Below, piece after piece: positions 1,722-43,618 of a stretch of 64,000 nucleotides of DNA. The notes beneath the pieces were generated by a model. That model did no database searches, was not told the origin of the DNA, and was given only the letters and a program-made list of their open reading frames with translations. This stretch comes from Thermoplasma acidophilum DSM 1728. GTDB taxonomy: Archaea; Thermoplasmatota; Thermoplasmata; Thermoplasmatales; Thermoplasmataceae. The stretch is from positions 1,235,644 through 1,299,643 of the forward strand of contig NC_002578.1 in assembly GCF_000195915.1 (NCBI RefSeq), written 5' to 3'. The position numbers were made by a program, and so were the translations under genes. The number at the start of each line of letters is the position of its first letter. Position 1 is the stretch's first letter.

Positions 1722-2996
1722 TCATCTGGTAAAATCCATGCTAATGTTCTTCGTCTCTATGCCATAGATTGCCCAGAATACTGTGGCAATGAAACCGACT
1801 CCCCAGAGTATCAGGTTGAAAATTATGTACTGATTAAGTGTAAATGATGATGTGGTGTATATGGAGGCGATGTATGCCAGAATGGGAAAGATACGCACCA
1901 GCCCTATTGAGTAGGATCTGTGGCCTGTCCCGAAAAGTTCCGGTTCAAGTGTCGTCCTGGAAGCCCACGCAAACTCAGAAAACATCATGTTCAGGAAGAG
2001 CAGAGGCAGAAACACCGCAGGATCCGATATATACCTTATCAACGCAAGTATCAGGATCATGGTTACCGTTCCGCCGAGATATGAAAGCATAGAATAGCGC
2101 TTTCTTCCCATATTGATAAGGAACATCGCTATGAATCCGGCAACAGATGCCCCTGCCATCGCATAGACAATTATTTCGCTTGTAAAATTGGGCTGGTTGG
2201 AGAAAAAGTATGGGCCTATTATGTAGGCCATCAAGCCGAAGGTTAGATACTGAGAAATCCCTATTATTCCCAGGAAAATCAGAGTGAGCGCATAGTTTGG
2301 CTCTCTCACCGATATACCGTCATCGTTGATTCCCATCTCCCGTCTAATCTCGTCAGCAGCCCTGTCCCTGCCCTTTTCCTTGAGCCACCTGAACGATTCC
2401 GGAACCCTGGCCCTTGTGTATACTGCAAGAAACACGGTTGCAATCCCTAGCAACAGGAAGTAAAGTTTCTGAGTGTGAATGCTGGATGAGTAAAAGTAAA
2501 GAAACAGGAAGGCTATGACGAAGCTTCCAATGTTGTTCATATTTGGAATCAGGACAAGATATCTTCCACGCTTCCTCACAGGCAGATCCTCTGCGATCAG
2601 CGATAGTGCTGTTACTTCTTCACCGCCAACGCCAATTTCGGCCAAAGCTATGCCTATTATAAGCGGAATCACCGAGTAGGCGAAATAGATTATGAATATC
2701 CCAAGGAGATACAGGACTATTGTTGAAACATACACCGCCTTCCTGCCAAACAGATCAGAAAGCCTGCCCAACGACAGATCTCCGATAAGCAGAAAGACCG
2801 ATGGAGCTGCCAGGAAGATCGCCTCATATGATCTTGGTAGCGCTGATATGAATGGCCACTGGGTGGCAAGCGGGGCAACGCTTGCTATTATCCCCCATAT
2901 GAACATCCCCGCGGATGCTGATATCAAAAGGTTCCTTGCGCTATACCTTCGTGTAAAATCTGGTTTTCCACCATTTATTTTGTTCTCATTCATCAT
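1722..2996 (-). CDS. MFS transporter under TPP riboswitch control, probable thiamine transporter
   Basis: About 424 residues with roughly twelve hydrophobic segments and an MFS loop 2-3 motif (GRLSDLFGRK), so a secondary transporter in the cytoplasmic membrane. The substrate is inferred from the mRNA leader: a TPP riboswitch ends at the start codon, as expected for a thiamine or thiamine-precursor uptake gene. The reading frame is open for 43 more codons upstream, but that stretch is the riboswitch itself. The start is therefore ATG 2994-2996 (or the adjacent ATG 2991-2993), preceded by GGAGG. I recall that THI elements before transporter genes have been reported in Thermoplasma. The transported species (thiamine versus HMP) is not visible. 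Confidence 0.82.
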   Translation of the reverse strand: MMNENKINGGKPDFTRRYSARNLLISASAGMFIWGIIASVAPLATQWPFISALPRSYEAIFLAAPSVFLLIGDLSLGRLSDLFGRKAVYVSTIVLYLLGIFIIYFAYSVIPLIIGIALAEIGVGGEEVTALSLIAEDLPVRKRGRYLVLIPNMNNIGSFVIAFLFLYFYSSSIHTQKLYFLLLGIATVFLAVYTRARVPESFRWLKEKGRDRAADEIRREMGINDDGISVREPNYALTLIFLGIIGISQYLTFGLMAYIIGPYFFSNQPNFTSEIIVYAMAGASVAGFIAMFLINMGRKRYSMLSYLGGTVTMILILALIRYISDPAVFLPLLFLNMMFSEFAWASRTTLEPELFGTGHRSYSIGLVRIFPILAYIASIYTTSSFTLNQYIIFNLILWGVGFIATVFWAIYGIETKNISMDFTR

Positions 2997-3096
2997 ACGA
3001 TTCCCTCCGCCGGTATTACCCGGATCAGGTTCCAGGGGTCGATCCATCCGGATCCTCTCAGCCCCCTTATGGAGCTCCCCCTCGCCTAGTTCGCAT
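2995..3096 (-). promoter_or_regulatory. TPP (THI-box) riboswitch
   Basis: Read on the minus strand, this about 102-nt leader has the conserved TPP aptamer blocks in order: the GGGG-x-GCTGAGAGG block (CTGAGA complementary to 3056-3061), then CCTGGAACCTGATCCGGGTAAT (core complementary to 3015-3029), then CCGGCGGAGGGA. A closing helix can form between ATGCGA (3091-3096 complement) and TCGTAT (2995-3000 complement). The 3' strand of that helix contains the first two bases of the start codon and sits next to the GGAGG ribosome binding site. Ligand binding should thus hide the translation start directly, with no extra expression platform. The aptamer is seen directly; the switching mode is inferred. 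Confidence 0.93.
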
Positions 3097-3284
3097 CTAG
3101 CTGCATCTGTCTTTCCAGGAATCACTCCATTTCAGCAGATGCATAGATTAATCGGCATTTATGCATCATAAAACGCTTTATCTACTTTTCGCATCAGAAA
3201 TCAAGATCGGAACTGCATTGAGATTGAAAATGCTTTAGATACAAAAATATATGTAATAAAGCATAATATGAGTTATGAAGTTGA

Positions 3285-3737
3285 GTGATCGAGATGAACG
3301 AAAAGAGCTGTAATTCAAAGGCGATCCAGGTATGGCGCCTTTACGTAGATCTGTGGAAACTCTGGTATAAGAAGACCGAAAGAAACCTGAACACGATAAA
3401 TCTTTCAGTTACAGAGTTTACCATAATGCGACAGCTCTCTGATAATGGGCCCATGTCCATGGCGGCCATTGCAAGCGCCATAAACGTCACCCCGGGGTGG
3501 GTCACTGGCGTTATAGATAAAATGGAGGATAAGGGGCTAGTGATGAGGAAGCGAGAAGAAACCGACAGGAGGATAATAAAGATATCGCTGACAGAACACG
3601 GGAAGGTGACATATGAAGAAGCAAAAGAGAAGCATTTTGCCTTTATAGAGAAGTCCCTCTCCGGTCTGTCAGAGTCGGATCTTGACATGGCCAATGACGT
3701 TCTCACGAAGATGATAGATAGCATAAATTCTGTCTGA
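3285..3737 (+). CDS. MarR-family transcriptional regulator
   Basis: A 150-aa winged-helix protein. The region LSVTEFTIMRQLSDNGPMSM leads into a recognition helix (INVTPGWVTGVIDKMEDKGLV) and the MarR wing REETDRRIIKISLT. The C-terminal helix (about residues 115-150) is the usual dimerization part. The start may be GTG 3285 or ATG 3294; the ATG gives a more normal N-terminus. It is divergent from the thiamine-type transporter with about 190 nt between them, so it could act on itself or on neighbours. The ligand is unknown. Confidence 0.87.
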   Translation: MIEMNEKSCNSKAIQVWRLYVDLWKLWYKKTERNLNTINLSVTEFTIMRQLSDNGPMSMAAIASAINVTPGWVTGVIDKMEDKGLVMRKREETDRRIIKISLTEHGKVTYEEAKEKHFAFIEKSLSGLSESDLDMANDVLTKMIDSINSV

Positions 3738-4616: not shown

Positions 4617-4703
4617 GCCGGGGTGGCTCAGCTGGAGGAGCGCCGGACTCATAAGTTAAACTGAGAAATCCGGAGGTCTCGGGTTCGATCCCCGATCCCG
4701 GCA
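4617..4703 (+). tRNA. tRNA-Met (CAT), probably elongator, with a 14-nt intron
   Basis: Acceptor GCCGGGG pairs with TCCCGGC plus discriminator A (4703). The anticodon stem CCGGA/TCCGG encloses CTCATAA with anticodon CAT at 4650-4652. An intron of about 14 nt (about 4654-4667) sits between positions 37 and 38, the canonical archaeal site cut by EndA at a bulge-helix-bulge. The T arm TCGGG-TTCGATC-CCCGA is perfect. The acceptor start (GCC rather than AGC) argues against initiator tRNA. tRNA-Ile2 with a modified CAU is the alternative, but the body resembles elongator Met. Confidence 0.9.
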
Positions 4704-43496: not shown

Positions 43497-43618
43497 GGCA
43501 ACGGTCATAGCAGCAGGGAAACACCAGATCCCATTCCGAACTCGACGGTTAAGCCTGCTGCGTATTGCGTTGTACTGTATGCCGCGAGGGTACGGGAAGC
43601 GCAATATGCTGTTACCAC
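43497..43618 (+). rRNA. rrf: 5S ribosomal RNA, stand-alone gene
   Basis: About 122 nt starting GGCAACGGTCATAGCAGCAG, with the loop B/C core CCCATTCCGAACTCGACGG and AGCCTGCTGCG, and the loop E region GCGAGGGTACGGGAAGC. Terminal helix GGCAACGG pairs with CTGTTACC. Matches my memory of T. acidophilum 5S. No 16S or 23S is adjacent, fitting the scattered single rRNA genes known in Thermoplasma. A T run at 43633-43638 may end transcription. Confidence 0.95.

Follow-up and report, generated by a model that had tools for sequence, protein, structure and literature searches.

A putative TPP riboswitch with a Shine-Dalgarno sequence inside its aptamer core in Thermoplasma acidophilum and other Thermoplasmatales

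A TPP riboswitch in the genome of Thermoplasma acidophilum DSM 1728 probably prevents translation of the gene behind it, a presumed thiamine transporter, by occluding the Shine-Dalgarno (SD) site directly, a reading to which we assign a probability of about 0.8. The element lies in a 64,000-nucleotide stretch of contig NC_002578.1 (the window). Its SD sequence is part of the conserved aptamer core and the start codon follows 7 nt on, leaving no space for another expression platform. When TPP is scarce, the P4 strand would be free and 16S rRNA could pair with GGAGG. When TPP is bound, the folded core (P2-P4-P5) would keep GGAGG in P4 and the adjoining bulge and block the 30S subunit. The aptamer alone would suffice, a separate expression platform being unneeded. 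Within the T. acidophilum clade, this block may be strengthened by an accessory, a short P1 whose end falls on the start codon. As far as sequence conservation can tell, what is conserved is the SD site within the core together with its spacing to the start codon, rather than closure of the start codon by P1. For the order Thermoplasmatales as a whole, we see roughly even odds that in most copies the aptamer forms the mRNA 5' end, P1 being missing or a mere vestige and ribosomes binding at the core itself, with about one third of copies gating a leader ORF of 12-42 codons that feeds an overlapping transporter start by termination-reinitiation.

The aptamer and its Shine-Dalgarno site

A covariance-model search with RF00059 identified a full TPP aptamer on the minus strand, spanning model positions 1-105 of 105 and scoring 78.3 bits, above the gathering score of 54.3 bits (window E-value 9e-14); it bears out the TPP aptamer proposed in a preliminary description of this DNA. 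The match was reproduced under laxer search settings and is the sole Rfam match with E up to 1 between positions 2900 and 3300 (Table 1). The genome (1,564,906 bases) holds two TPP aptamer copies. Elsewhere in the window, a tRNA gene at 4617-4703 (+) is interrupted near the anticodon by an insertion that may be an intron, its anticodon not being named by ARAGORN, and a 5S rRNA gene at 43497-43617 (+) is the only rRNA match.

Table 1. Features of the riboswitch locus (window positions)
Feature	Position	Strand	Remarks
MFS transporter, 424 aa	1722..2996	-	MFS_1 match; substrate presumed
Start codon ATG	2994..2996	-	7 nt after GGAGG; first ATG, kept in orthologues
TPP riboswitch aptamer	2984..3091	-	RF00059 match, flanks included
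P1 3' strand TCGTA (Rfam)	2996..3000	-	ends on the start-codon A, opposite G
GGAGG, SD site within aptamer core	3004..3008	-	five-base match to CCTCC at the 16S rRNA 3' end of T. acidophilum
P4 5' strand CCU	3027..3029	-	pairs with AGG of the SD site; covariance-model structure line
P1 5' strand GGCGA (Rfam)	3082..3086	-	covariance-model structure line; kept in L003, L044
ATGCGA, distal P1 strand of the preliminary description	3091..3096	-	some folds pair it with TCGTAT; unconserved
TTTTATGATGC, weak TATA-like site	3163..3173	-	aligned with TATATAATAC in Thermoplasma sp. FL; predicted start near 3143
AAAAGTAGATAAAG block	3176..3189	-	belongs to 16 nt conserved in Thermoplasma sp. FL; putative upstream promoter element

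GGAGG consists of one bulge base and the four-base 3' strand of P4. Its AGG (3006-3004) pairs with the CCU strand and the first base of the P4 3' strand faces a G, so that the fourth pair of P4 is G.G in the window copy and three of the five SD bases are in Watson-Crick pairing within the aptamer. GGAGG had been described as lying next to the P1 strand TCGTAT; it is present, and it sits inside the core, as P4 3' strand plus bulge, and not beside the aptamer. Structural statements here are predictions, with folding computed at 37 °C, below the growth temperature of T. acidophilum. The 16S rRNA of the organism ends in GGATCACCTCC and GGAGG is therefore a five-base match to the anti-SD sequence. 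Since leaderless mRNAs are in wide use in Thermoplasma, according to the available excerpts of PMC7531240, we infer SD use at the window copy rather than take it as given.

The gene behind the SD site encodes an MFS protein, presumed from the riboswitch to transport thiamine or a precursor. Two orthologues (L003 and L044) have the same first ATG at identical spacing and in L010, which we take to be the T. volcanium copy, it is one nucleotide closer. The longest ORF in the transporter frame runs from a GTG at 3125 to 1722 (-), encodes 467 aa and reads across the aptamer, a trap for annotation; this GTG was rejected as the true gene start because the orthologues keep the ATG behind the SD site. 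The closest named relative found is Thermoplasma sp. FL (87% protein identity). Order-wide, 88 of 122 downstream proteins fall into one cluster, of which four were scanned and all matched MFS_1. A second cluster holds 33 proteins; of four scanned, two scored above the cut-off of a solute-binding family, one below it, and one gave no match.

A survey of 117 genomes from the order, many of them metagenome bins, with RF00059 gave 123 matches in 86 genomes, 118 above the cut-off. All 123 aptamers and their flanks were read by script, the counts being of loci and not of independent events. The core contains GGAGG in 103 of the 123 aptamers, and 87 of these 103 have an ATG 3-8 nt past the last core base; when the downstream 30 nt were shuffled 300 times, 16 had one on average and never more than 27. 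Only 4 of the 20 aptamers without GGAGG have an ATG at that distance. Most of these 20 carry a GAAGG(A/G)A core and, some 40 nt further along, an ATG preceded by an SD-like site; 14 of the 20 possess a three-pair P1. Outside the order, 62 genomes had a match and 20 aptamers from other Thermoplasmatota were read by eye. The main ATG lies 3-6 nt away in all nine GGAGG cores and 40-50 nt away in 10 of the 11 cores without GGAGG, the eleventh (L170) having in-frame ATGs at both 4 and 40.

By script, the aptamers of the order were sorted into classes A (52), B (44, with leader ORFs), C (20) and C? (7), and this sorting underlies the P1, AUG-pairing, flank and TATA counts given below. Correction by hand gave 53 A, 41 B, 19 C and 7 C?, with three set aside: L042 moved to A, L118 to C, and the three aptamers of one genome, G097 (L005, L041, L045), were removed. 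Their flanks are unlike the rest and two have a GCGTAGGGA core, G097 possibly being a mixed bin. Two further pairs of loci are identical across taxa, in transporter rows for L108 and L110 (genomes G111 and G039, two families) and in flanks for L091 and L097 (genomes G052 and G071, different genera), apparently through misbinned contigs or recent transfer.

Promoter position, P1 and the start codon

TATA-like 6-mers cluster about 32 nt before P2 across the order. As a reference we used 269 genes of four genomes that have free DNA upstream, many presumably leaderless, in which the 6-mer starts on average at -31.3 relative to the ATG (95% interval -32.3 to -30.4) and is found in 39% of genes over a background of 18%. 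Measured relative to P2, the mean is -31.6 (-32.7 to -30.5) in class A, where 75% of 52 copies have a site against 15% of background windows; -33.7 in class B (51% of 43, background 21%); -30.1 in class C (50% of 20, background 10%); and -29.4 in C?, where all seven have a site but the background is 57%. Taken over all 122 copies, 64% possess a near TATA-like site compared with 19% in the background, and 36% lack one; for the 20 aptamers elsewhere in the phylum the figures are 30% and 0. A near site places the predicted start within a few nucleotides of P2, so that such transcripts would contain hardly any of the P1 5' strand. A hand-made TATA weight matrix applied from -110 to -12 located the best site near P2 (-42 to -22) in 76 of 122 copies and elsewhere in 46. 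L010 is among the 46, yet by eye has TTAAATAT at the near position. The gene-calibrated 6-mer count is better evidence than this matrix.

At the near-P2 position, the window copy and L003 have no TATA-like 6-mer. Their best matrix sites are found about 92 nt before P2, beside the 16-nt conserved block, and P1 is therefore predicted to be transcribed there. The start predicted for the window copy relies on a TATA-to-start distance calibrated on genes. A transcription start inside the aptamer, which the preliminary description had held out as evidence against its model, is not predicted for the window copy, while for many relatives promoter position comes near to predicting it. Immediately upstream of the riboswitch promoter region lies a divergent gene (3285-3737, +) that by eye has the look of a MarR-type regulator.

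The main control could instead be P1 formation upon TPP binding that buries the start codon, which we consider unlikely. As had been observed, TCGTAT (3000-2995) does contain the first two bases of the ATG, and it pairs with ATGCGA when 3098-2991 or the predicted leader (from about 3142) is folded to minimum energy. This helix is different from, and more distant than, the Rfam P1, GGCGA/TCGTA, which forms four of five pairs, the fifth being a G.A mismatch at the first base of the ATG. ATGCGA/TCGTAT is absent from the minimum-energy fold of 3130-2964, and Thermoplasma sp. FL has not kept its distal 5' strand, although the aligned leader there retains TAGGCGAG, almost the entire core and TCGTATGATGAA.

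Compared over 95 class A and B rows, AUG pairing to the flank on its 5' side is barely above that for shuffled flanks (0.24 versus 0.22). The genus Thermoplasma exceeds its shuffles, in favor of start-codon closure, at 0.24 versus 0.13 (n = 9); other class A copies give 0.19 versus 0.23 (n = 43) and class B 0.29 versus 0.22 (n = 43). At most one of 20 shuffles was as good in one, three and seven aptamers of these groups, respectively, where about 9 of 95 would be expected. An adjacent P1 of at least 4 bp is found in 19 of the 123 aptamers of the order, 15% compared with 10% for mismatched partners (8/52 A, 8/44 B, 3/20 C, 0/7 C?). Six class A aptamers have a P1 of at least 5 bp, and consistent with start-codon closure the 3' strand enters the ATG in five of them (L010, L013, L002, L054 and L059, pairs by eye), the sixth being L044. 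Many relatives, however, are predicted barely to transcribe the 5' strand. P1 as a conserved lock on the start codon was consequently rejected as a general rule, on the near-shuffled AUG pairing, the scarcity of P1 helices of at least 4 bp and the helix broken in Thermoplasma sp. FL. The preliminary description had proposed a ligand-gated block of translation in an archaeon, with the aptamer as its own expression platform and P1 closing the start codon; the aptamer as its own platform and translation as the likely controlled step are supported, whereas the P1 closure is not supported as a general mechanism.

P1 has nevertheless likely not been lost completely. Core-adjacent pairs (of 5) exceed those of permuted partners in class A (3.33 versus 3.11, sd 0.08) and class B (3.67 versus 3.38, sd 0.09), so that a short residual P1 is likely in both classes; class C is not above its permuted value (3.58 versus 3.70). 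These comparisons covered 51 rows of class A, 42 of B and 19 of C, with L081, the C? rows and duplicates dropped. In the same rows flank complementarity showed no general excess, the longest helix versus permuted being 5.59/5.46, 5.45/5.33 and 5.05/5.22, respectively. The extremes are illustrated by the T. acidophilum copy, which has a short P1, and L022, which has no P1 pairs.

A strand exchange, in which the roughly 60-nt leader upstream of the aptamer competes with P3 in the unbound state through pairing of ATGGAG (3130-3125) with CTCCAT, appears improbable. This pairing does occur in the minimum-energy fold of 3130-2964, and promoter-like elements are located upstream of ATGGAG, but with the predicted start near 3143 the minimum-energy fold forms the aptamer core instead. 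The leader is also poorly conserved in the closest relative and many relatives seem to be without one. The upstream anti-aptamer pairing was set aside as a weak candidate. Control of transcription through termination or RNA decay, with the overlap of SD site and aptamer incidental, is very improbable, since there is no space for a terminator between aptamer and gene, the ATG lying inside the Rfam match, and a GGAGG core accompanies an immediate start codon order-wide.

Leader ORFs overlapping the transporter start

Direct occlusion of the SD site within the core may also act through a second gene arrangement. In 41 of the 123 aptamers the start codon beside the aptamer SD opens a short ORF of 12-42 codons and not the transporter. 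All 39 leader ORFs examined run into the transporter start, compared with 6.2 of 39 expected from shuffling the intervening DNA, where the main starts of both were the same ones chosen by hand among in-frame starts, a choice that favors short overlap in a few GTG/TTG cases. The leaders end 0, 1, 4, 7, 8, 11, 14 or 17 nt past the first base of the transporter start, and common joints are TAATG, TGATG and ATGA. Outside the 39 are L009, whose 42-codon leader begins with GTG and ends 17 nt past an ATG, and L026, which ends at a contig edge. Just before the transporter start, inside the leader, a run of at least 4 SD bases is present in 35 of 39 loci; such runs are found in 45% of shuffled stretches and in 4 of 39 stretches 20 nt further up. 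Five loci show a variant (L120, L125, L126, L129 and L130): an ATG one nucleotide after the core opens a 15-codon ORF, and ACG stands where the transporter ATG would normally be.

Mapped onto a tree built from 86 transporter proteins, the leader type requires 7 changes versus 28.8 when shuffled, counting the five loci with an ATG one nucleotide after the core as leader type, and has therefore arisen or disappeared more than once. Where related leaders have the same length, they keep the frame while their peptides drift, with a pooled pN of 0.199 versus a pS of 0.298 over 15 pairs that are not independent and a ratio of 1.19 for the pair L014 and L021. Leader peptides also differ between groups. 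A role of the leader peptide as sensor is not supported by these substitution ratios and between-group differences; what is kept is the open frame and the overlap.

The arrangement suggests riboswitch-gated translational coupling in archaea. In class B, TPP would gate initiation on the leader ORF, and ribosomes finishing the leader would reinitiate on the overlapping transporter start. If this is true, translating the leader, and not its peptide, would be the working part of an archaeal termination-reinitiation riboswitch.

Relation to known riboswitches

More than 100 compact candidate riboswitches are thus found in one order, most without a strong P1 and with two apparent routes by which the signal reaches the ribosome, directly or via an overlapping leader ORF. 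For comparison, the fluoride switch was the only natural archaeal riboswitch determined by experiment as of 2021, according to the available portion of PMC8241225. Among the matches listed in a literature search, judged by title and start of abstract and drawn largely from outside subscription literature, no paper dealt with leader ORFs or short-P1 TPP riboswitches in archaea. The lineage-wide pattern is new as far as could be seen. Direct SD occlusion by TPP aptamers is already in print, and the window element, considered by itself, belongs to an established kind.

The term 'direct translation attenuation' has been used for TPP riboswitches in which, as in the window copy, the purine-rich 3' part of the core is the ribosome-binding site (Barrick and Breaker 2007, PMC2258182). 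The available excerpts of that study report TPP riboswitches in euryarchaea and draw P1 as the switching element; they describe this type as commonest in Actinobacteria and Cyanobacteria, whereas the present set is archaeal, and contain no mention that we found of leader ORFs, promoter position or a loss of P1 in archaea. A reviewer's remark in the accessible part of PMC2974657 refers to Thermoplasma THI elements, which are probably the same elements, the window copy probably among them. The direct-occlusion riboswitches SAM-II, SAM-III and preQ1-II resemble the window copy in having the SD site embedded in or adjoining the ligand-binding fold, but their ligands and folds are other than those of the TPP aptamer, and the review that treats them (PMC10907184), in the sections available, files TPP under strand exchange.

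For class B, coupling of overlapping genes has been shown in the archaeon Haloferax volcanii, as excerpted from PMC7531240. A closer counterpart is the B12 riboswitch of Mycobacterium tuberculosis ppe2, where a translated, riboswitch-controlled uORF overlaps the main start and most of the main protein arises by termination-reinitiation, according to the text available of PMC11260477. The ppe2 system responds to B12 through another aptamer, belongs to a bacterium and has been tested at the bench, while in class B the SD site of the short ORF lies inside the aptamer core and the arrangement is known from sequence. Both place a short ORF across the main start, and class B may work alike.
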